Assembly (NCBI GenBank): GCA_900095095.1
Contig: FMBT01000290.1
Span: forward strand, 1,178,001 to 1,242,000
Reading direction: 5' to 3'
Source: Fragilariopsis cylindrus CCMP1102
Lineage: Eukaryota > Bacillariophyta > Bacillariophyceae > Bacillariales > Bacillariaceae
DNA: 64,000 nucleotides
The translations under genes were made by a program, and so were the position numbers. The stretch's first letter is position 1, and every line of letters starts with the position of its first letter. Shown here in pieces: positions 24,069-64,000 of this stretch. A model generated the notes under the pieces. That model was not told the DNA's origin. It did no database searches and worked only from the letters and a program-made list of their open reading frames with translations.

Positions 24069-24099
24069 AAGTCGATCGTGAGAAGGGTTGCTATGTAGT

Positions 24100-24419
24100 A
24101 AAAGATCTTGCCAAATTGGAACTGTGGAAACGTTGGCGAAAGGTTAGGTAGGAAGTGACTAATAAAAGATCTTGCCAAATTGGAACTGTGGAAACGTTGG
24201 CGAAAGGTTAGGTAGGAAGTGACTAATAAAAGATTTTGCCAAATTGGAACTGTGAAAACGTTGGCGAAAGATTAGGTAGGAAGTGACTAGTAAAAGATCT
24301 TGCCAGACTGGAACTGTGAAAACGTTGGCGAAAGATTAGGTAGAAAGTGACTAATAAAAGATCTTGCCAGACTGGAACTGTGGAAACGTTGGCGAAAGAA
24401 GAGGTAGGAAGTGACTAAA
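24100..24419. repeat. 64-bp minisatellite, five units
   Basis: Five tandem units with starts at 24100, 24164, 24228, 24292 and 24356, each beginning AAAAGATCTTGCC (one has AAAAGATTTTGCC). Units differ by a few substitutions. GTCGATCGTG flanks the array on both sides (24071-24080 and about 24431-24440). Confidence 0.9.
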
Positions 24420-38379: not shown

Positions 38380-39075
38380 TTATGGGGACCTTGAAAGTAT
38401 GGGCATGATGGATGCTGGTGCACCCAACCAATCTGGTGCTGTCCTCTGAAACCCTTTCAAATGAGATATTTTGTTGTTCATTTTGGTCAAAAATCATGTT
38501 GTTTGTGTGCCTTCCACAGCAGCAAAATGAATACCATCCCACAACCACAGGAATAGAAATGCTGTAGGAGGCAAACACAAGATTCTACTACTCTATGTGG
38601 ATGCTAGTGCACCCAACCCATCTGGTGTTGTCCTCTGAAACCCTTTCAAATGAGATATTTTGTATTCATTTCTGATCAAAAATCATGTTGTTGTTTTTGT
38701 GCCTTCCACAACAGCAAAATGAATACCATCCCACAACCACAGCACCAGAAAGTTGTAGGAGGCAAACACAATGTTCTAGTACTCTATGTGGATGTTTGTG
38801 CACCCTACCCATCTGGTGTTGTCTACTGAAACCCTTTCAAATGATATATTTTGTATTCATATCTGATCAAAAATCATGTTGTTGTTTTTGTGCCTTCCAC
38901 ACCAACAAAATGAATTTCATTCCACAAACACATAGGCAGAAAAGTTGTAGGAGGCAAACACAATGTTCTATTACACTTTTTGAATGCTAGTGCACCCAAC
39001 CTATCAGGTGTTGTCCTGTGCAACCCTTACATTTGAGATATTTTGTGGTTCATTTCTGATCAAAAATTGTACTGT
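38380..39075. repeat. About 190-bp tandem satellite, four copies
   Basis: Four imperfect units with equivalent positions at about 38409, 38598, 38789 and 38984 (spacing 189-195 bp). Each contains GTGCACCCAACC-like, ACCCTTTCAAATGA, ATCAAAAATCATGTTG and GCCTTCCAC blocks; the last copy is partial. Confidence 0.85.
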
Positions 39076-50033: not shown

Positions 50034-50050
50034 TTAAGGTGGTATCATCA
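50034..50050. repeat. Left target site (TTAA) and terminal inverted repeat
   Basis: TTAA at 50034-50037 followed by GGTGGTATCATCA at 50038-50050. Matches the right end exactly in inverse orientation. Confidence 0.9.
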
Positions 50051-50092
50051 GCGTGCGCCGAAAATCGCGCTACAACGCGTAAAAGCACGGTG

Positions 50093-50117
50093 AAAATGGA
50101 CAATTCGTGTCCATTTT
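50093..50117. repeat. Subterminal hairpin at the left transposon end
   Basis: AAAATGGACA, a 5-nt loop, and TGTCCATTTT form perfect 10-bp arms about 45 bp inside the left TIR. It may be a transposase-binding or terminator-like structure. A second, looser inverted repeat (GTGTTTA ... TAAACAC) lies at about 50307-50338. Confidence 0.7.
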
Positions 50118-50388
50118 GGTTAGACCTATTGTGCTGGCAGTGTTCTCGTACACGCACCGTCCTATATATGATGACCTTCGTCTGCTCAACACGAATCTTT
50201 CTATGTCCAATTTGATTGGTGTTCAGCGCGTGTACTAGGTGCTGTATATTTCTGAAACTCAAAAAGGTGGTTTTTAGCCGTTTTCTGCGAAAATAGTTCA
50301 AAAGTGTTTATCTACATCAATTTTTACGTTAAACACTTAATACCGGTGGGGGTTATATTCTGCTAAATGAGTTCTACCCGTACGTCAT

Positions 50389-50754
50389 TCAACCGTCGTG
50401 ATCCGAGCCTTGGGTGTCATCCAAATAGGGCTCCGAATCTTGCTCTAAAATCTCCCTTTCGAGTAGACAGCAATGGAATTGCGAATTCGTTAGGTCCGCT
50501 GTTGCCGCTGTTTCTTCGCACGAATCTTCAAGCGCGCATAGCTCATTTTCCTCAACGTTTGGATTGTTGGATTCCAACGTCCCTTATTACCGTTAGAAAT
50601 AAAGAAAAGCAGAAGTACACTTCAGTAGTTTTATGGATTTCTTTGTGAAAATTTGAATTATAATTACATACGCAGAAAACACGATTGTACCCGGTAGGAT
50701 CACTCTTTTGTTGGTCGCAACGGTAAATTTCACCACCGGCCAATTTCAACCCCC
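50389..50754 (-). other. Coding-like sequence downstream of the transposase
   Basis: Two pieces in different frames look like protein: LKLAGGEIYRCDQQKSDPTG (around 50690-50745) and an acidic tail ending in LDDTQGSDHDG (to 50389). A pyrimidine tract with CTAAC and AG near 50590 could be a splice acceptor. They may be 3' exons or a frame-shifted continuation of the transposase, but I cannot fix a consistent splice model. Confidence 0.35.
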
Positions 50755-53004
50755 TCACATTATTCCTCCCATACCTCCCATCTCACATTTTGCACACAAC
50801 CACTTACCGGTATTTTCATCTATTACACTTTCCACTGGTTCGTCAACTAAATTTACTTCGTCGTGTTTCAACTCTTCAACCACCGTATGATCAGGTATAC
50901 CATTTGGGTACTCTAATATCATGGCTTTAATTAAAGCCGGATCCTCACCCTCCTTCGTAACGTAATTTTTATGATACGGGCAATGTTTAGATTTGTTGAC
51001 ATGATCCTTTCTTTTGCAAAGCTTACAAGACGTCCTCTTTTTTTTCCCATCAATTGCTGCGGTAGTTACCTTTTTTTTTGCCTTTTTCCTTGTATTCAAC
51101 GCTGCTCGTGATGTACCCTCGTTCAATCCCATTCCAGGTTTGTAAAATTCTCCTTTATCCTGTGATTTCTCCTCCTTTTTCCGATTCTCCCTCTTCTTTA
51201 TGTTTTTCCGCATCATTCTTCTCCTTTTTATCGTGTCTAATTGGATGTAGTGTTTTTTGTAGGTCCTTTTTTTCTCTATATCCGTCCATCCCTTTACTCG
51301 TAGCAGATTATTTTCAAATCCCATTCTCTTATACAATTCAACCATGGTGGATTTGTACCCGTCTGTAATAATACATACCGAGAAATGGACCCTACCTTTA
51401 TCCGCTATTGTCGTTCCGAAATTCTTGTGTTTGGGCAAAAACTTTGTTACAACAAAGTTTGCTGATTCACTCAAATTTGTATTTACCTTATGGTGTATTT
51501 CTCGTAGTTGTTGCTCGGTGGTATAACGTTTGTGTATCTCCTTCAAGTTATCATACATTAATTTGTTTTTGACTTTGCAACGATAATGTAAATGATCCGC
51601 CGATTTTTTTGTATCAGTTAGCTTTTTAGCAGCGCACCACTCACCGCACAGTTCGTGATTATTAAAATGATGCTCTATAACTGGTGCGAATGCAGCACAG
51701 AATAAATTGAAATCCTTATCCACATTCTTAGCCCGAGCGTACGCAAAATTGACTTTCAATCGATCACGGTCAACACCAGTTACTCCCCCACTTTCCCCCT
51801 TCCTCATGTTAACTAACTTCTGAACTGCATTACCGAATCCACGCACTCTGTGATTAGCATCCGCTTTACAGATAGGTTCAGGTATGTTCAGTTCAAGTGC
51901 ACCGTGGTCGTTTTTGTTGCTCAATTGGATGGTTGGCGTTAGGTCCTCCTTTCGACATAATCCTGCTTCTATCTTTTCTCTTCCATTCTGTTTTAGTCGG
52001 GCTCTCATACTGGAATCGTCATCAGTAACAATAGTGCCTACAAACGCATCACCCTTGGAAAAAATCGATTGGATGCATTTCAAAGCAGCATGAGGTTCCA
52101 TTCCCTTTGCAGAACCTGTATAGTTATGCGAGCACAATTTCGGATCGTGTTCCAACTTGTGTTCACATTTTCGACAACGCGTGGACATCTGCTCAAAGTA
52201 GAGAATTTTATTCGTCTCTACTCCAAAAGCAAAAAATTGGGCTTGTTGTGCGTCGTAAGTTCTTCCGGAGCTACGCTTTCTCCATCCAGCATCCATAGAT
52301 ACGCCTATGTTTCGTTTTTTCTTTGGTCTTGGTCTCGCTTCTTGGTTTTCGTCCAACGAAACTGCATCTACTTCCAACGCGGGTGTATTTGACATAGGGG
52401 TATTTTCACCCGCCTTTCTTTTTCTAATCGTATCTGCAACGAGGTGCACCTCATCAGTGATTGGATCGTTGACCAATTGTGATTCCTTTTTTTCGTCGTT
52501 CAAGTTTCTTTCAACTACTTCTTCCGCCATTTTTATTATGTGCAGAGCCATAGTTTCTTCATTGGATGTAAACGAGTCTAGCAATTGTCGCTGGCTGCAA
52601 CATAGATTAAGCTGAGAGGCAACCAATGCGTAATCGTGTCCGCCACCTCCAATCATCATTATACCTAAAGTCAAGTCTAGATTGAGTTGATACTGTCGAG
52701 TAGCACGGTTACCACATTTTTTTATATCATATGGATCGCACTTGTCGTCAACCAACTTATCCAAATCAACCATGGCTGGTTCCTTGACGGACCATTCGTT
52801 ATATTTTTCACAAATCACATTCTTACATGCTAGACTGACCTTTGTAGCTATTCCGATAGTTTCGGCACAAAACTCCATTGTGTTCATTTTCCTGCATTTA
52901 CAACACACTGTGTTTTCGACAAGAAGAGCAGTTATGCTCTTCCATGCAATTATTACATTCCGATCGTCACACTTGTTTACAAAAATTCGACCCCCCCCCA
53001 TCAT
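50755..53004 (-). CDS. Mutator-like transposase of the transposon
   Basis: A 749-aa protein. The core near residues 232-330 matches the pattern of the Mutator-like transposase domain seen in many eukaryotic elements (PF20700 type, from memory): NIGVSMDAGWRKRSSGRTYD, CRKCEHKLEH, CSHNYTGSAKGMEPHAALKC and VTDDDSSMRARLKQNG. The Asp residues in SMDAGW and TDDDSS are likely catalytic. ADANHRVRGFGNAVQKLVN is in the place of the conserved His/Lys segment. N-terminal CCKCRKM and C-terminal CKLCKRKDHVNKSKHCPYH are zinc-knuckle-like, and there are Lys/Arg-rich nuclear-localisation clusters. The start ATG precedes a G9 run; a coding-like frame upstream (NRLNLAHWVNDGGG) suggests the true N-terminus may be longer with a base change there. 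The end WLCAKCEMGGMGGIM is also uncertain. Confidence 0.75.
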   Translation of the reverse strand: MMGGGRIFVNKCDDRNVIIAWKSITALLVENTVCCKCRKMNTMEFCAETIGIATKVSLACKNVICEKYNEWSVKEPAMVDLDKLVDDKCDPYDIKKCGNRATRQYQLNLDLTLGIMMIGGGGHDYALVASQLNLCCSQRQLLDSFTSNEETMALHIIKMAEEVVERNLNDEKKESQLVNDPITDEVHLVADTIRKRKAGENTPMSNTPALEVDAVSLDENQEARPRPKKKRNIGVSMDAGWRKRSSGRTYDAQQAQFFAFGVETNKILYFEQMSTRCRKCEHKLEHDPKLCSHNYTGSAKGMEPHAALKCIQSIFSKGDAFVGTIVTDDDSSMRARLKQNGREKIEAGLCRKEDLTPTIQLSNKNDHGALELNIPEPICKADANHRVRGFGNAVQKLVNMRKGESGGVTGVDRDRLKVNFAYARAKNVDKDFNLFCAAFAPVIEHHFNNHELCGEWCAAKKLTDTKKSADHLHYRCKVKNKLMYDNLKEIHKRYTTEQQLREIHHKVNTNLSESANFVVTKFLPKHKNFGTTIADKGRVHFSVCIITDGYKSTMVELYKRMGFENNLLRVKGWTDIEKKRTYKKHYIQLDTIKRRRMMRKNIKKRENRKKEEKSQDKGEFYKPGMGLNEGTSRAALNTRKKAKKKVTTAAIDGKKKRTSCKLCKRKDHVNKSKHCPYHKNYVTKEGEDPALIKAMILEYPNGIPDHTVVEELKHDEVNLVDEPVESVIDENTGKWLCAKCEMGGMGGIM

Positions 53005-53024
53005 TCACCCAATGTGCCAAGTTC

Positions 53025-53103
53025 AACCTATTTGTAAAACACCATGGATCAAATAATTGCTTTAACCTATTTGTAAAACACCATGGATCAAATAAATTGC
53101 TTC
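53025..53103. repeat. 39-bp tandem duplication in the transposon
   Basis: AACCTATTTGTAAAACACCA and the following 19 bases occur twice in direct order (53025-53063 and 53064-53103; one-base indel). It lies just upstream of the annotated transposase start. Confidence 0.9.
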
Positions 53104-53900
53104 AACTAAAACAACATTCGTGGTTCACGTAATAGTATTGTTTCCTTGTGCTCTGTTCTCTGTCAGTAGCGGAATCCATAACGAGCGCGGTGAACCATTT
53201 GATTCGACAACCAACGACCAGGTTGTGCAAAGCATCTATTCGAACCACGTATCTATACAAACCACACTCGTGTCAAATCAAACTGGACGGACAAGATTCA
53301 AATCAGTATTGTCATTCTTTCAAATTGTCTGTTGCTGTAATGCATCCTTTTTGTCGTTAACGGTTACGACGAGCCCATCGGTAGGTAGTACTGACTTACC
53401 CCCCAAAATCCGAAAAATTGCGCGCCTTTTCTGAATACGTGCAGGTGCTTGGTATTTATCTCCTATGAAATTGTAATAAGAATAGTTGAAAGATCTAATA
53501 CACGCCGGCTATACAAACCTGTTGATAGTCTTCCAGGTCGATTCAAAAAACGCCCATACAACCGGCAACAAATCACATGTTTCCCTCCGTTTTCAACTCA
53601 ATATCTAACACGGTTGCTTTCCAGAAAGAGAGGGACTTTCACCGGCCATCATTCGTAAGCATCAAGAGCAGGGCTGGATCTTCCGTTTGACAAATCAAAG
53701 CGTTAGCACCCCCGGTTGTATACAACAATGCTATAGTTCCCTCCATTTTGAACACGACCTACTTCTATCCTTTATTATTTTAGCGTACTAAAGTAACAAA
53801 AAGCACTATACTTGACCTAAATATTGTGGAAGTCGAACAATATGATCATAATTTGCAACTTCGTTCGACAAAACAGTAGTATCCAATTACAACACGTATC
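53104..53900. other. Divergent promoter region inside the transposon
   Basis: Spacer between the transposase (-) and the gene at 53901 (+). Short open frames only; nothing firmly coding. Confidence 0.4.
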
Positions 53901-55167
53901 ATGTTGTTTTCTGTTGTTAATGGCTTTGAGCAATTTTTATTGTCAGTCTCCTCTCATTTCTCGGATGAAACTATATACCTGCCTTACGACGATAAATTGG
54001 AACACCCGATCTGGATAGTCTCTCAATACAAACCTCTTCAAGTTCCACCCATGTCGTATTTGCTGTATGAGGACCGTTCGGTAACTTTCACTGCTGAATA
54101 TCATTTGCAGGAGGTAGATGGTGAACAGAATACCATCCAGGTGCTCAAGAAGATAGTTCGAGTACATCTACCGTTTTGGACAAGTTACACAGATTGCGTA
54201 AAAGTAATCCACACTCTCATGGGCGGAGGCAACCCCATTTACAAAGAGAGGGAAAGTGATTTATTCACTGAGCGTCGAATGGTTATTGGAGGCATTGCTA
54301 TCCTCCACGAGTTTGTGTACAATATTAACAACCTCAAATCGTTTTCCAAAATTGAAGACTACCCTGAAATCCACGCTGGTTCACAGAACAGGTCTGGTAT
54401 ATACGAAATGGAATCGTATATGAGTTTAGATCGAGAATTTGATGCCATCTGCAACAGGCTGCACAGATGGGTACCAACAGTCCCTACACAGGAGGATGTT
54501 CCACAGGTCGAATTTGAGAAGGTTGATTCCTGGTCGCTCTGTTACTCGAGACAAGAAACATGGAAAGAAACACACGCTCGTATTAACGAACAGTGCAAAC
54601 GATTCCGTATTACCAACTTCAAGGAACCAACACGAATGCTGTGCTATTACAGCCCCGGTGGAAATTCATCCAGGCAAAATTGCACCCATTGCAATTGTCA
54701 TCCTTGTGCTTGGGAAATCAATAGAGTAGAGATAATTCGTAATGTTAACTCTATGCGAGGTGAAAGCAGGTACTCGGCCAATGAACGTCGCTTCCTTGGA
54801 TATCGTTTTTTTTTACTTCATTCTTCACGACGGATATGGCCCTATAAACAAGCGCGTTCCTCTCCCTCGTTGTGGAACAGAGGCAATTAAAAAGGAATGG
54901 CCAAATCCACCCGGTGTCGGTTTCACCGGGTTCAAGCTCCACCGTCGTCGAACCAATACCGTGCGTGCTGTTTCTTCTCCACAAGCTAGATTACCCGCGG
55001 ATGTTTCCACCAGGCAATCGATCTGCCGTCCCCGTCAAATCAAATACTACATCGATCCCAAAAAAAAACCAAACGAGGTAATCGAGATTCACGACGAAGT
55101 TCAGATCAAGATTGAAAAAGGAGTAAAGGAGGTAATTGAAATTGAAGACGACGACGACGACGAGTAA
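53901..55167 (+). pseudogene. Transposon accessory gene 1, broken by a frameshift
   Basis: Coding sequence of about 420 codons in two frames. The first (53901 to about 54805) contains LLYEDRSVTFTAEYHLQEVD, LHRWVPTVPTQED and a cysteine cluster CTHCNCHPC. The frame then switches inside a T9 run at 54806-54814; with T8 the protein would continue directly into GYGPINKRVPLPRCG, GVGFTGFKLHRRR and an acidic tail ending at 55167. The reading is otherwise continuous. I do not recognise the family. It could be a recent inactivation, a sequencing error in a homopolymer or slippage on the T run. The CTHCNCHPC cluster suggests a metal site. Confidence 0.65.
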
Positions 55168-55582
55168 ACAAAAGAGAAATTGAGGATGATTGAAATGTGA
55201 TAACAGTAACCGATTGAGATTGATGAGTAAATGTAATGAACGACGATGAATAAACCACTGGTAAAAAAGAAAAAAAGATTAAGCAAAAAAGCAACACAGA
55301 AGAAAGATAATAAAAGAGAACTATATTTGTAATGAAATCTAGTTCTACTTTCTTTATTAGTTAGTTGTATAATAGGCATACTTGGTTGGTTTGTGCATAA
55401 ACCAAGTAACTTTTAACCTATGTGAATTCTGACCGTGTTGATTGTATAGGTAGCGAGCTTGGTGGTGATGACATCCACCAGGTTGTATAAAACTCAATTG
55501 CTATGTTCCAATAATTACTGTTCCAATCCTATCCGTAAACGATGTTTCAGTGTACTCATGTCAACATAGGCGTTGATTGATT
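55168..55582. other. Intergenic spacer between converging transposon genes
   Basis: About 400 bases of AT-rich DNA with no coding signal. Confidence 0.4.
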
Positions 55583-58073
55583 TTATTTTCTATTCTTTTT
55601 CTCCTTTTTCTCCTTTTCCTCCTTTTCCTCCTTTTTCTTCTTTTTCTTCTTTCTCTTCTTCTTTTCATTATTGTTGTTGTTATCAGCACCTATTCTATTA
55701 TCACTACTATTACCACTAGCGCTACCATTTACAGAATCGGTGGTGCGAGCACTATTACGTGCGCTCAATAGCGCTTTCACCGTCAAATGTTGATTGTTTC
55801 CGCCCCTTGCGACATTCGACCCCGTCGAATGTTCGTCAACAGTTGATCCGTTCGTTGTGGCATTTAAATTAAATAGTTGTAATATTTCTTTGATTTCGTC
55901 GCTGTTGCTCTTGCAAGTACCCGTCGTCACTACTACCGCGGACGATTCGGCGGAGGTGTTGTTGTCACCCTCACCGACTTTCAACCCCGTCGAATGTTGT
56001 TGTCCGCTAGTTGCTGTTTCCGCATCGTCAACAGTTGATCCGTTCGTCGCGGCGGTCAAATTTCCTGAGTTGCTGATACCTGTTTCGGCAGATGTATTGT
56101 TTGTGCCCTGTGCGACATTCAACCCCGCATCATTAGCAGCATCCTCTGCGTTGGCCTGACCTGTTTTCTCACCGTGAGCAGGTGGTTCGTTCGTTTTGTC
56201 ATTTAGAATTTAGTTGCCCGTCGGATTCAACCCCAGCGACATCCAACCCCGTCGGATGTTGTAGTTCAATGACTGTTTCCTCACTGTTAGCAGTTGGTGC
56301 GTTCGTCGTGGCATTTAAATCGACCAGATCCTCCCGAATCTTCCAGATCGTCCGGATCGTCCGCATTTCATTAACAGTTTTTCCTGCTTCGTTTGTTCTC
56401 CAAAAATGGGTGAGTTCATCTATGTCGGTTGCCGTGTGATTGACATAATTATTTTCTCCGTTGGTTTCACTTTCCAAATACCTTTTAAACTCATCTAAGG
56501 CCTTGGGTCGACCATATGCCATCGCAGCTGTTTTTTTTCTTCGGCATAATGGTTCGTATTTGTGTCCAACCCCATTGATGTCGGTAATTTGTAGAAGTAT
56601 AAATTCTTGTGATGGAAACTCCATACCAGGACGCTGACTGTATCTGTCGAAGACGTTCGTCATAGTTTCCACATTTGCTTTCAGTTTTTTTCGTTGTTGG
56701 CCAGCCATACATGCGGCGGGTGTAGTCCAGGTTCTCTTTGGCCTATATTCACGCAGTGACGCACTGAATCCTTTCTCAGTCCACAAACCGTCATCCGTAT
56801 AATTCTGTTCACTCCATTCTCCGTTGTCTGGTATGCCTGCAGCCTCAATGTTATCATCACCATCATTCTGTACCATTGGTTCATCCGGATCAAGTGTATC
56901 ATCACCCGGGTCGTATATCGAAACACTGTCCGATTTACTTACCGAATCATCTTCATCTGATGAGTGATGTGCTACCTCCACTGATTGGGTTGGAGGTTTC
57001 TTCTGTTGAGATATCAGAATTCTTTCACTTCGTCTCGGTCCCAAATTCTGACCTGGTTGAATTTGAGTATGATCAGATTGTGATAGGGCAAAATTCGGAC
57101 CTAGTTGATTATCACCTTGATTTAACGCAGCAAAAGCAACCTTCTTTCGCTTTGGTACAGCGGGTACAGCAGGTACAGCGGGTACAGCAGGTACAGGCGG
57201 TAAAATAAGGGATGAATCTTCTCCAAGCATTCCCTCGGGAACCTTAATCCATTCGACTCCATCCACTGCCGACTTGTTTAATTCTAAAAATCCTTTTTCA
57301 ACGAACATATCGACAAATGAACCACAAGCAACAAATGTCATTCCAATCGATAAATTGTTTTTCAAAAGGGTCATGCCTTTGTCAAACATTTCGTCGGAGT
57401 TGTTATATGCATGGTGACAATGACACCCGGTAAAAATTTCAACCAGGTGAAAGATCAAACCGCCGCGAGACTCGAGGATGTTGGTTCCAAAGTGATGTCG
57501 AATTTGAACAAGGAATAACCGTTGCAGTTCAAGGTGTGCCGCTGGGGCTACAGATAGGTAAGGAAAACTGTCAACCAAGATTGTTAGTACATCTCTCGAT
57601 GCAAGTATCTCGTTCGACAACACCTCTTCTTCTTCTAGATGTGATATTGTCTCGTCCAACTCTTTGCTGAATTTGACGGTGAAATCTCCTATAACAGCCA
57701 CGAATTTCAAAAAATAATCGTCGTTGTCGCTGGCTAAGGGTGAGATGTCCCCCGGTTGAAGTTCGTTGATTTGCTCCACACCCGCTTCTAGTACAATTCC
57801 TTCCATACTAGCCAATGTTGGAAATTTTTCTATTAAAATGTCCAAGAACTGTTGCTGACTATATTTATCCAACCGTTGTGATAAAGGAAGATGATTGTCA
57901 CTCTTCCAAAATAATTTGAAATCGGTATCGAATGTCGCCAATTCGGTAGTTCGCTCTTCATCATTCATAGCCTTTACCAAATCATGAAGATCGGGAGGTG
58001 GATATGATGCTGATGCTGCAGCATCGTGAAGGATGGACATGGTTATTGAAAAACGCAGTAGTTGAAAACTCAA
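55583..58073 (-). CDS. Transposon accessory gene 2, two frames with shared repeats
   Basis: One gene of about 830 codons in two frames. The first, 58073-56199, gives 624 aa: mostly helical N-terminus, a PAVPAVPAVPAVP run near residue 305, basic/acidic middle, and CRRKKTAAMAYGRPKAL. The translation stops at TCT AAA TGA C (56207-56198). A frame reaching 55583 continues 1 base further with a Lys-rich end. Both parts contain the same repeat (LNATTNAPT, NLTAATNGSTVDD, LNATTNGSTVDE and PTGLDV, STGLKV, STGSNV), which shows they belong together. A single base gain or a +1 slip at the stop would join them. No known family is recognised. Confidence 0.55.
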
Positions 58074-58639
58074 ATGAATTATATGATTAGTGGAATATGA
58101 GACAATCGAAAGGAGGCTTTCGAATGTTGTTCTTTTTGAGATTGTGAGAAAAAGGAATTAGGAGGAGAACTACGATGAAGGAAGTAGGAAACAGTCCATG
58201 GAAAATACCCATGAGTTGTCGTAACAGCCAGTATCGGAGTGGTTTACGAATTTGGTTTTCAAAAAGAAACGGAGTGATGGGTTTATGATGTCAACCGTTT
58301 TTTATTTTTCAGTACGGGATGAATGAATGGTTACAATATATCGTGGAGGTTGTGTCACAAACGATAATATGGCGCGCCAGTCGGTTATTTTTGTTCACAC
58401 GGTGAAAAACCGTTGAAAGATGTTATAATAATAACTGGAGGAGTAACGATCCACACACTACTAACATTGTGTACAGTACTGCGTCGACGTCAGACCTATG
58501 GTGGTAAGCGTAGATCCTGTGTACTTCAACCTGGTCTTGTGTTCTTCACCCTGGTCAAATCCCACATGTAACAATCCATACCAAAGGTGTTTTGACTGGA
58601 TATTTAGGACAAAACATAAAAACAGACAGTAATCTCATC
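58074..58639. other. Divergent promoter region in the transposon
   Basis: Between accessory gene 2 (-) and the 145-aa gene (+). No gene is seen. Confidence 0.4.
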
Positions 58640-59077
58640 ATGAATACGTCTTATTATTCCTTAGACCAGTCCACCATCAACGATTTAAAATCGGGTGGAC
58701 TGACCATGGTGACGATGCAACAGGGTGAAATGGGTATCATGATGTTCACCTCCCCGAATGAATCTTTTCGGTACAACGATAATTGCATTACTTTGAAAAG
58801 AGAAATCGCCGCATTGAACAAAGAATTTGAAGATGGAAATGTTGGAAAGAAAGTATACTACAAAAACGTGGCAAAATGGTGTAGCAACGTGCTTCATTTT
58901 GCCAACGAATGGAGTCCTCATCGTGTGCCATTCGATATTCGTGATGGTTACGATGACTGCATGAACACCATTGGTTGTACCAGCACAATGACATGGCCTG
59001 ACAAAGTACAGATTCCATTGAGCGAGTTGCCTGATGAAGCACGAAACGAGATAGTCGCATCATACACCGTAATTTAG
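58640..59077 (+). CDS. Transposon accessory gene 3, 145 aa
   Basis: A 145-aa protein from the ATG at 58640 (the frame is open a little further upstream without ATG). It is acidic, with no membrane segment or signal peptide. Distinctive parts are YYSLDQSTINDLKSGG, REIAALNKEFEDGNVGKK and CSNVLHFANEWSPHR. Family unknown. Its location between the TIRs suggests it belongs to the element. Confidence 0.6.
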   Translation: MNTSYYSLDQSTINDLKSGGLTMVTMQQGEMGIMMFTSPNESFRYNDNCITLKREIAALNKEFEDGNVGKKVYYKNVAKWCSNVLHFANEWSPHRVPFDIRDGYDDCMNTIGCTSTMTWPDKVQIPLSELPDEARNEIVASYTVI

Positions 59078-59202
59078 TCGATGCAATATAAATGATAGGT
59101 AATAGTTTTAATAAAATAAAATCCAACTAATACGAATAGCCATAGTATAGTAATAAATGAAATGTTTCTTAAAATGTATACTAGTGTCTTATTTAGTTAC
59201 AA

Positions 59203-59430
59203 TCACGAACGATTATTCTGGACCTTTTTGGGAAAAACCCGGGTGATATCTGCCATTGGTGGATTACAACTATAGTCCATATGGTTGTCGATGTAACAGT
59301 GAACAGAACTGAATTTGTCTGGTTTGAAACCGGTAGTGATACCAGAATCATCTTCCGTTCCAGTGTTGTTAGTTAGGGTAAAATAAAAAACACTAGGATC
59401 GGGTGAATACACCGTGGTGTGATATTGCAT
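59203..59430 (-). CDS. Small transposon frame, 75 aa
   Basis: A 75-aa frame from an ATG: FYFTLTNNTGTEDDSGI and HCYIDNHMDYSCNPPMAD, with two cysteines. Amino-acid composition is normal for a coding region, but I see no family, and it could be a remnant. Confidence 0.35.
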   Translation of the reverse strand: MQYHTTVYSPDPSVFYFTLTNNTGTEDDSGITTGFKPDKFSSVHCYIDNHMDYSCNPPMADITRVFPKKVQNNRS

Positions 59431-59693
59431 ATTAACTCTTGGGAAGAGATGCTCGTCGGACTTTATTCGGGGTTCGGTCGACGTTTTTGTATGGTACTTA
59501 GTACGAAAAATTGGGTGGGCGTTATTTTACTGTTACAAGAGAACACCTACAGAAAGGGAATCGCAAAAAAAAAACACGAATATACAGGATTTGATTTTAA
59601 AAAAAAGGATATCAAAGACGGTGATAATCGATGGGGGTGAAATTCCAAATTCCGTGATTTTTGGACTCATCGCGCACCATATCGAAGGATTCG

Positions 59694-59710
59694 TGATGAT
59701 ACCACCTTAA
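59694..59710. repeat. Right terminal inverted repeat and target site (TTAA)
   Basis: TGATGATACCACC at 59694-59706 followed by TTAA at 59707-59710. Beyond 13 bp the two ends differ. Confidence 0.9.
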
Positions 59711-60138
59711 TTGATATTTTATTGTGAAATTAAAAACAAACGATTAATTGTTACGTGATGTAACAGAAGCAAGCAAGCTATAAAAGAGAACAATAAAAGT
59801 TCGCACCCATCCCAATAACAGAACAAGGCAGATTGTATGTGGTGTTCCTTCTGATTCCGCGTCTTTTTCAATACAACCTACTCCAAAACAAATACCGTAC
59901 TGTACTACTGGAACACCTGTACTAACCCGTTAACATCACAATCACAAGCAACCTACAGTTTATTAATAAAAAAGCTGCTCTTGAGCGTGAATTATAAGAG
60001 AGAAAAGAAAAAGAGAGAAATAAGAGTGTGTGAGAGAGAGAAAGAGAAAGCGATTGATTCGATTAAATTCATTCAATTCACGCAAAGTCAAAGAAAGTCA
60101 AAAGAAAGTCAAATTCAAATTTTAGATTTTAAATTAGT
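59711..60138. other. Upstream region of the helicase-associated gene
   Basis: Promoter/5' leader region, AG-rich from about 60000. No gene. Confidence 0.4.
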
Positions 60139-62895
60139 ATGAGTGGTGTTAATAGAAATAATTTTCTAAGATTTCGACGGTTATCGTCGTCGTCATCGTC
60201 AAGTAATCATAATAATAATAATATACAAGGCGTGCAAGAACAAGGTGTACAGCAGCAAGATCAAAAATCTTTATCATTACTAGCGTCATCGGCATCGTCA
60301 TCGTCCGCATCCGCATCCGCATCCGCATCATCGTCGTCGACTAATAATACTACTACTACTAGTAGTAGTAGTAGTAGTAGTAGGGTAGAAAAGATGGTAT
60401 TATGCGATACGAATCATCCGGTGGAAAATGAAAAGAAAAAGGAGGCGAGAGAAGAGGATACAGAATTAAACGAAATAAGTCACGGTAGTCGTCGCGGATG
60501 GAATCTGAAAAAGAAAAATAGGCGTAGTAGAGATACTACCGCCGGTACTAATAGTACTGCGGCTATTACCTCCAGTAGTAGTAGTACTTTGGGTATTAGT
60601 CGTAACGATGACGTCAATGATGGCGACGACGATGACAGTAGGAGTACCAACAACAACAAAAATAAGAGAATGAAATTTGATGGCGGTGAAAGCAACAGCA
60701 ACAACAACCACAGGGAGGACGAAGACGAAGACGGACGACGAGAAGACAAAACTACTAACGTTAGTAGTAGTAGTAATAGTAGTCCTGATAATGTGGATGA
60801 TGGAGTAACAGTAATATTGAAAAAAAAGGATGTACCAAAAGAATTAGTAGATACAAATTATGGCAAAGAATCGAAATATTGGCAGTCATTAAATGATGTA
60901 TTACAATTAAAAAGAACAGATCGTAGACAATCATTAGGATCTGATTCATCTGATTATGATTATGAGTCATCCTCTGACTCTGAATCGGAAGAGGAATGTA
61001 ATGAGAATGATTCGGACAATGATAATGATGATAATGATAATGGCGATTCTCATAAATCGGAAGGAGGAAAGAAGAAGAAGAAGAAGAAGAGCAAGATAAA
61101 AAAAGAAAAACGTTCTCGTTCGAAATCATTAAAAAGAATATTAGCTCGTGCTCGTGCACGTTCATTATCAAGATCACAATCCCAATCCGAATCCCAATCA
61201 GCAGTGGTAGTACAAAATTCAAAATCTACAAATTCAAAATCTACTGAATCTACTGAATTATCGTCAAAATTATCATCTCATCAAACAAGTTATTCGAGAT
61301 CATCGAAGTCAAAGTCAAAATCATTACCATTCGAGGATACTATTGCGACTACGACGACGACGACAACAACGTCGAAGAAGAAGAAGAATCCTCCTCCATC
61401 TCCTCCTGTCAATAATAGTACTTCTAGTAGACGACCACAACGTCGTCGACGTAAGAACAGTATTGCCAGCAGTCGTGCTACTACTACACATAACAACGAT
61501 GAGGATGATGATGATATTGATGCATTCGATATTGATGTGGATGATTTTGTGGTATTGAATGTAAGTCCATCAATTGTTGCTGCTACAACTGCTGCAAGAC
61601 AACAACGTCGTAGTACTAGTAGTAGAAATCGTAGTCCTGCAAAAGCAGAAGCTGCAAATGATCATGGTGACAATGATGATGATGATGATGATGAGACATG
61701 GGATGAAATGTATCAACATTTAGCTAAATTCTACAAGAAGTATGGTCATTGTAAGGTTACTAAAGAATTAGATATATTAGTAAAGAGAAAGAAGAATGGT
61801 CGTTCACAACAATATGGTGAATTAAAAAAATCATTGCAATATTGGGTAACCTATCAACATCGACGTATGAGACCGGAAATCAAACATCGTGGTGGGGCAC
61901 GTAATCTAAGTCTAAGAGAAGAAAAATTATTAAATGAACTGAATTTTTGTAAATTTGAATACAAAGAAACTGTACAAGAATTTGATAATTTTTTTTGGTA
62001 GACGTATTGCCAAAAAATTTGATTTTTACAAGATGATGGTATAGAAACAACACAAATTTATTTTGGTACTGTTGGTAGAATATCATCTATATCAAATAAA
62101 GTAAGTGTTAGTTACTATTTTAGTTTTTGCCATGCTGGCGTCGTCATTGCCCTGCTTACTATCAACTCAAAAAAAATCTAACAAAACCCGCCTTTTCCTT
62201 TTCCTCCTTTCCTTCCTCTTACCTACTATTTTGCTGCTGCTATTGCTGTTTATTGTATCTTGTAATTGTAATTATTCATAGTGGGTACGTATTAATTATG
62301 ATGATGGTGATAGGAAGATCTTGATACAACACATTTAATGTATGGATTACATTTATATAAAAAATATTCAAATCAAGATATTAATAAACAACCAGCAACA
62401 ACAACAACAAGTAGTGCTGCTTCTGATGCTGATGTTCAGGCTGATGCTATTGATGTTGATGGCAACAACGAACGTATAAGTAGTAGTACTCCTATTACTA
62501 AACGTCGTCTTGCTCGTCAAGGGGGTGTCAAACAATGTATTCATCAAAATGCTGGTACTGATAATGATATATTGGTATCATCTACTTGGACTACATCCTG
62601 TGGCAACATAAAGTATGCTACAAATATTCTACTTGAAGCTGATAAGAAGAAGAATTCGAATGAAACGAAAACCATCGATCGTGTCGTCCTCGTTGATGAG
62701 GACAAGGACAAGCACATCATGATAGAAAAAGTAAACGACGACTACGACGATCATCATGATGTTTTGGTAGAAGGAGAAGGGCGTAGTAGAGCTGATTATG
62801 ACGACGAAAATAATAATAAAAAACCTGCTGCTGTGCAAAAGAAAAGAAAAGCTTCCTCTACTGCTGCTGCTGCACATCATCGTTCATCAGAATGA
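60139..62895 (+). CDS. Helicase-associated-domain / tudor-like protein, frame-disrupted 3' part
   Basis: The first frame (60139-62001, 620 aa) has Ser, Asn, Asp and Arg low-complexity for 500 residues and then a helicase-associated domain: WDEMYQHLAKFYKKYGHCKV, YWVTYQHRRMRPE and LSLREEKLLNELNFCKFEY. The tail continues into an SH3/tudor-like module: GRRIAKKFD, TTQIYFGTVGRISSI, then after an intron at 62101-62281 (GTAAGT ... TTCATAG) WVRINYDDGD. To reach it the frame must lose one T of T8 (61989-61996), regain one base near 62032 and one near 62312. The open frame from there to 62895 is low-complexity, ending in TAAAAHHRSSE. Helicase-associated proteins are greatly expanded in diatoms and probably nuclear. 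Confidence 0.6.
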
Positions 62896-64000
62896 AAATT
62901 TATGTTAGATCCTGATGATGACAATGGTGATGATATGATGATGAATTAGAAGATGTACCGATGAAGAAGAAAATGACTATAACAACGATAATGATAATGG
63001 TAAAGACGACAGTCCCGAAAAAAATAAAAGTTGTTCATTCCATCAGTTATAGTAATTCTTCTAAATTCCAGAAGATGATGATAAAGAAACGACAACGACG
63101 AACCTTACCTACTATTGCTACATCCTCCAGAAATAGGAATATGAAGAACAGCGACAGCGACAGCTACAACGACAGCGATAATAACATCAACAACAGGAAG
63201 ATAGATGATTCATTGTATGATGGAGAAGAAGAAGAAAATCCGATGACAACTACGACGGCGGATACGAAGTCGACAGCGACAATGACGACGACGATCACGA
63301 TAAAGATGCTACTACTGCAACTACAAGTGTAAAGAATGAAGGAGAAGAAAAAGAAGATGTGCACGAGGACGATTATGCTGCCCGTGCTACTACTGCTAGT
63401 AGTAAAGCAGCGACAACTGCCCCTATGAATGATGAATATTATCATGATTCTAGTGATGATGAGGCTATTATAAATAAAATGACATTTATTTCTCCTCCTC
63501 CTACTTCTGCTGCAGCTGCTGCAGCTGGTATTGGTACCAACATTGATGATAATACGAAAACGATAGGTCGTTATTTCTATTCTTTTGGTAATAACAGTAA
63601 TGGTAATCCTGCTGACACTGGCACTGCTGCTGACACTGCTGCTACTGTTCCCACTCTTGCCAAGATTACTAATGCTCAATATGCTGGACAACGATCTGCT
63701 GAAGGAACATTTAATGCAGCATCATCTGCATCATCAGTAGCAGTAGCGAATCAGAAAATGAAGGCGCAACGAGAAATCATTACTATTGACACTACCGATG
63801 AGGAGGATAATGCCAATGCCAACGAAGATAATGATAATGATATCCACATGACTGCCAATAATCTCAGTCTCAATATCGCTTTAGCAGCAATGGATCATGA
63901 CCAATATAATAACAATACGACATTAGCAAAGCAGCAGCTGCAGGTGCACCCGCACGCGCGGGATCATCAACGTCATCAACAGCATCTTCAGCAGCATCAG
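62896..64000 (+). pseudogene. Frame-broken continuation, runs off the window
   Basis: Asp, Glu, Asn and Thr-rich coding-like sequence continues in alternating frames: LDPDDDNGDD, EEENDYNNDNDNGKDD, SDSYNDSDNNINN. A frame stays open from about 63218 to the end of the window (DEYYHDSSDDEAIINKMTF, IREIITIDTTDEED-like blocks). Changes of frame occur near 62895, 62945, 62960 and 63232, mostly at short A or T runs. Either the gene has decayed or the region contains errors. Confidence 0.45.

Follow-up and report, generated by a model that had tools for sequence, protein, structure and literature searches.

The Kolobok superfamily of DNA transposons is defined by TTAA target-site duplications together with 5'-RR...YY-3' termini, and its occurrence in diatoms is described in PMC9587614 and reported in PMC7466962. 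In the layout given for its transposases, a C/DxxH motif lies between the second D and the E of the DDE residues, a zinc finger sits between C/DxxH and the E, and in some lineages a second, CCHC finger follows the first D (PMC9587614). The transposases usually have a THAP domain, and ten Xenopus elements are tabulated at 6.8-13.9 kb (PMC6004289). Here we describe an element found in a 64,000-nucleotide stretch of the diatom Fragilariopsis cylindrus CCMP1102 (contig FMBT01000290.1, positions 1,178,001 to 1,242,000 of the forward strand; this whole stretch is called the window, its contig C91, and other contigs are given handles of the same form). The element measures 9,677 bp (50034..59710, both TTAA included), and we consider it very probably a member of the Kolobok superfamily with a transposase of its own. 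The initial annotation of this DNA had called both the length and the cargo unusual for such short terminal inverted repeats; the length is matched by the tabulated Xenopus elements (PMC6004289), and it is the accessory gene set, three genes besides the transposase, that is the unusual part.

The borders of the element can be read directly. The window contains two occurrences, and no more, of GGTGGTATCATCA, the perfect 13-bp inverted repeat: one lies on the forward strand at 50038-50050, the other on the reverse strand at 59694-59706. The 13-mer did not turn up in any of 100 shuffles; it is flanked by TTAA at 50034..50037 and 59707..59710, with each of these parts exactly where the initial annotation had placed it, and the element termini are GG...CC. 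Across the 67.9-Mb genome the bare 13-mer is found 54 times (once for the reversed control), and 41 of these occurrences carry TTAA immediately on their outer side (none for the reversed control). We do not regard the other 13 as element ends because a BLAST search with ~1 kb around each (E 1e-5) gave no hit on the element or on any of the 11 short relatives considered below, and no partner end was present within any of these ~1-kb pieces. The borders and the target-site duplication are fixed by contig C523, which represents the uninterrupted locus of the copy in C516: its left flank (98.1% over 154 bp) passes through a single TTAA into the right flank (94.4% over 161 bp). Such an empty site had been proposed as a check of the initial annotation, and the one found here shows a 4-bp TTAA duplication for the C516 copy. 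The two flanks of the C276 copy were found at different places, and following the match to C523 led to the C516 empty site. A search for an empty site matching the flanks of the C108 copy found none, and none was seen for the window copy, whose left flank has just one full-length occurrence (4,034 bp).

Searching the same genome with the element ends, another check that had been proposed, brought out further copies of the 9,677-bp unit in other contigs. The whole unit (9.63-9.68 kb) is present in eight contigs, namely C91 (the window), C108, C276, C390, C416, C516, C536 and C742, with a pairwise substitution divergence of 0.05-2.14%; the differences are concentrated in the initial 1 kb, for which two or more types of left end exist. 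C40 and C559 hold only the last 633-635 bp of the element, at the contig start. The 41 TTAA-carrying ends divide into 14 belonging to full copies (one end is altered in each of C416 and C742, hence 14 ends over eight copies), the two at the starts of C40 and C559, 22 belonging to short relatives, and three others (C52, C91:978628 and C297). The same element borders adjoin six or more distinct flanks on the left and six or more on the right. With its dispersed and nearly identical copies, the element is a young, recently active cut-and-paste DNA transposon.

Some of the flanks are shared between copies. The right flank in the window (59711..64000, 4,290 bp) follows the element at ~100% identity in C108, C536 and C390 as well, and the four contigs with this common right flank carry four different left flanks. 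C91, C536 and C390 all terminate at the same base, equal to C108:533695, which lies at a ~190-bp stretch (C108:533503-533695) that is 91% self-complementary and probably stopped the assembler. C516 and C742 likewise both end at one base, equal to C276:13838. Here the shared left flanks agree with C276 at only ~94-98%, so that they might be alleles. Next to the element, one left flank is common to three contigs at 96-99%. The simplest reading is that contigs which stop in this repeat were extended through it into a single neighbouring sequence. The window copy's right flank is probably not its own but the shared contig tail of one locus, perhaps that of another copy; its right junction being doubtful, the window by itself does not prove a target-site duplication of the window copy. 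The same shared flanks and the common end of three contigs are what could be held in favour of segmental duplication, or of assembly copies of one locus, as the origin of all the copies in place of transposition. We consider such an origin extremely improbable, given the number of distinct flanks on both sides at the same borders, the divergence of the copies by up to 2.14%, and the empty site in C523, which contradicts a duplication. As observations on the neighbourhood of the element, the shared tail contains, immediately to its right at 60133-62001 of the window, an open frame that matches the helicase-associated domain (HA, PF03457; E 8.5e-8), and the right flanks of the C276 copy (C276:2000-2197) and the C416 copy (C416:1820-2120) are 96% alike and recur at C638:1938-2128, reflecting either insertion beside repeated DNA or a single locus represented by its alleles.

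The transposase gene of the young transposon lies on the reverse strand at 50755..53004 (749 aa as assembled in the window), as judged from its open reading frame, a profile match and motifs. Pfam PF20700 matches it at 8.3e-29, and 'Mutator' is the Pfam label of this match, which accounts for the 'Mutator-like transposase' of the initial annotation. The motifs run, in order, SMDAGW (D238), the zinc knuckle CRKCEHKLEHDPKLCSH (277-293), VTDDDS (326-331; D328-330), DANH (382-385), LCGEWC, NLSES (E513) and a C-terminal CCHC knuckle (660-675). For the transposase, the Kolobok assignment comes from comparing these motifs by eye with the published description. The comparison finds the DDE residues with DxxH between the second D and the E (D238, D328-330, DANH 382-385 and E513) and, again by eye, a zinc finger, HHFNNHELCGEWC, between residues 385 and 513; the one regular expression tried for a finger at this place gave no match. 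The start of the protein is uncertain: the adjacent N-terminal G run is not the same in all copies, and the frame extends farther upstream in C108 and C536. The TTAA duplication, seen at the empty site of one copy and consistent with TTAA at 41 of the 54 13-mers, and the GG...CC termini, which conform to RR...YY, complete the agreement with the superfamily.

Within the superfamily, the element resembles the Kol0 group (Kolobok-1_XT, with transposase and KolX) in the TTAA duplication, the purine-purine start, a DDE transposase containing DxxH and a zinc finger and, at the motif level only, a possible KolX as second gene; it differs in having two further genes, and the scanned frame gave no match to a THAP domain. 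The knuckle after the first D is a likeness to the transposases of KolobokE, KolobokD and KolobokP; unlike in those, the scanned frames show no Pfam trace of a lambda-type exonuclease, a DnaQ exonuclease or a His-Me nuclease. Specifically, a Pfam search of six frames (E up to 1) gave no lambda exonuclease, RecQ helicase or DnaQ exonuclease (the companions in KolobokE, KolobokH and KolobokD, respectively), and neither did a search at E up to 10 of the three accessory genes in their longer frames. The His-Me finger nuclease of KolobokP had no Pfam match in the scanned frames, and its long terminal direct repeats were absent from the 20 largest of 48 repeat families. The TTAA target is also common to piggyBac, from which the element differs by its Kolobok-type GG...CC ends; a Pfam scan of the element frames gave no piggyBac transposase domain, in line with the earlier judgement that the transposase core does not resemble piggyBac. 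That annotation had further spoken of a distinct lineage of large, gene-carrying transposons; the size, the cargo and the TTAA target stand, whereas 'distinct' gives way to a fit with Kolobok.

A separate TTAA superfamily that merely resembles Kolobok, for example one with a Mutator-type transposase and a changed target, would be in keeping with the Pfam name of the transposase domain. MuDR is known for 8-9 bp target-site duplications, against the 4-bp TTAA here, and the Kolobok residues and zinc-finger positions all appear in the published order. In favour of such a superfamily one may also count the THAP domain, usual in Kolobok transposases (PMC6004289) and not found here; on balance we judge it improbable.

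Several points nonetheless weigh against our reading of the element as a Kolobok transposon with its own transposase. The placement rests on target, ends and motifs because no search tied PF20700 to Kolobok, and the open-licence papers searched neither name PF20700 nor pair Kolobok with 'Mutator-like transposase.' The Pfam search for a THAP domain (E up to 1) covered 748 aa, of which the N-terminal start varies, and returned PF20700 only. No single copy among the eight has all four frames open, and since homopolymer runs (at least 3) hold between 13/37 and 12/23 of the indel events per copy relative to the window, sequencing error of this kind explains, as far as the comparison goes, no more than some of the frame breaks. 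As for the substitutions among the eight copies, pN/pS is just 0.60 for the third gene, P4 (21 synonymous, 45 nonsynonymous), and 0.74 for the fourth, P5, from 4 changes only, too few to tell. The transposase (0.40; 33 synonymous, 51 nonsynonymous, 3 stop) and the KolX-like gene (0.44; 11 synonymous, 18 nonsynonymous, 1 stop) show coding-like variation among the copies.

The KolX-like candidate gene, delimited at 53901..55167 on the forward strand from open reading frames and comparison of the copies, is uninterrupted for 421 aa in C108 and for 422 aa in C276. The window sequence has one additional T in the T run near 54810, which splits the gene into the frames 53901-54890 and 54736-55167. 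The protein was compared with the P2X7 C-terminal ballast domain, or ZCD (PF20478), for which the published motifs are PxWCxCx2C, LCCRx3GxCITTS/T and (L/I/V)PSC(C/S)x3IRx2(F/Y)Px5Y(S/T)G (PMC7016195). The 421-aa protein has CNCHPC (264-269) and LPRCGTEAIKKEWPNPPGVGFTG (321-343), that is, CxCx2C followed by a C-terminal LPxC(x4)IKx2WPx6FTG. The three cysteines of motif 1 are in place without PxW, motif 2 is absent, and 7 of the 12 fixed residues of motif 3 agree, its last gap being one residue longer. A relaxed form of the motif has 6 matches in 544,744 residues of six-frame translation of the DNA collected (element copies included), all of the same sequence, and none in 200,000 shuffles, a figure that overstates the significance as the motif was fitted after the protein had been seen. 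The strict published motif has no match in the same residues, and CxCx2C by itself is common there (137 matches; 1,104 of 200,000 shuffles). No P2X7 match was returned by Pfam for the whole protein and two fragments or by phmmer against PDB for the whole protein and one fragment; a search for PF20478 across the genome found nothing, and since its control was also without a match this is no proof of absence. An interferon match of the longer fragment (E 0.17 in Pfam, 1.4 in PDB) was set aside as chance-level, and the AlphaFold2 model of residues 1-360 (pLDDT 33.7) was too poor for use. We lean slightly towards regarding the product as a diverged KolX, a putative zinc-binding accessory protein of the ballast type, on the level of motifs only.

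The remaining two genes, P4 on the reverse strand at 55583..58040 (827 aa in C742; in the window 613 aa at 56199-58040 plus a tail frame at 55583-56209) and P5 on the forward strand at 58640..59077 (145 aa), were delimited from open reading frames and the copies; with the KolX-like gene they bring the further genes to exactly three, where the initial annotation had counted at least three. P5 is present in each of the eight copies; five have it open, and in C390, C536 and C416 it is broken. Both have relatives elsewhere in the genome. Residues 369-591 of P4, to which the best local alignment is confined, align to an open 745-aa stop-to-stop frame at C83 with 102 of 208 residues identical, and over these 208 codons dN is 0.42 and dS 2.0 (near saturation), giving a dN/dS of ~0.2; the C83 frame itself (410-2647 of C83:522200-526500) is rich in low-complexity runs. 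A further, decayed piece of P4 lies at C772. Relatives of P5 are located at C89 (72%, open frame, dN/dS 0.61), C384 (58%) and C164 (28%, open frame), with C439 and C197 as two weaker P5-like places among those listed. P4, P5 and the C83 and C164 frames had no Pfam match above the cut-off, and AlphaFold2 gave a model of P5 too poor for use (pLDDT 44.2). Viral contigs scanned with all four element proteins, and prokaryote genomes scanned with the transposase, gave no relatives, the scans reaching close relatives only; the best E in a PHROGs search was 0.065. P4 and P5 are thus left without named relatives, and a role for them in transposition is a guess.

These relatives are what suggests that the accessory genes might be captured host genes, carried as passengers with no part in transposition, which would be compatible with a Kolobok element. 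Against this, P4, P5 and the KolX-like gene are present, whole or broken, in all eight copies, and decayed pieces of the transposase (C242 and C694) and of P4 (C772) suggest that older relatives of the element may once have resided in this genome; we regard a mere passenger role as rather unlikely.

Our preferred reading remains a Kolobok transposon with accessory genes of its own. The origin of the P2X7 ballast domain has so far been traced to animal Kol0 elements (PMC9587614; PMC7016195), and the open-licence literature, supplements aside and as far as its accessible portions go, makes no mention of KolX outside animals, which is no proof of novelty. If the KolX identity is true, the origin of the ballast domain reaches beyond animals. 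Tentatively, and at less than even odds, one may picture a new Kolobok lineage outside animals that combines a transposase with a C-C-H-C knuckle, a diverged KolX and two unnamed proteins, P4 being ancestor or descendant of a conserved gene located elsewhere in the genome; the P2X7 ballast would then be older than animals and carried by algal transposons. Irrespective of this picture, the element is a young multi-gene Kolobok, apparently from outside animals, whose borders are fixed and for which an empty site exists, and the domain that P4 has in common with the C83 frame offers a case in which capture or domestication can be tested.

By analogy with the superfamily, the transposase would bind the short end repeats, cut the element out as DNA and join it to TTAA sites, leaving TTAA on each side, and the three accessory proteins would probably assist the transposition step or its timing. 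The same machinery may bear on a set of 11 shorter elements (609-671 bp; in C42, C80, C108, C184, C237, C324, C388, C543, C574 and C608) that share the left end of the full element (225/291 to 264/283 identical positions). Their right end differs from it, consisting of the 13-mer followed by AAGATCAG in 11 of 11; C52 shows this right end as well, and the similarity of C297 to the short elements spans most of their length. The 200-bp flanks are identical between C80 and C543 and nearly so between C574 and C608, so the eleven represent nine loci, the others being alleles or duplicates. A sister autonomous element with the right end of the short elements probably exists or existed, and the short relatives were probably mobilised either by the transposase described here or by this sister element, not seen whole here. 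Elsewhere in the window, two tandem arrays are located at 24099-24418 (64-bp unit, 5 copies) and 38409-39067 (191-bp unit, 3.5 copies).

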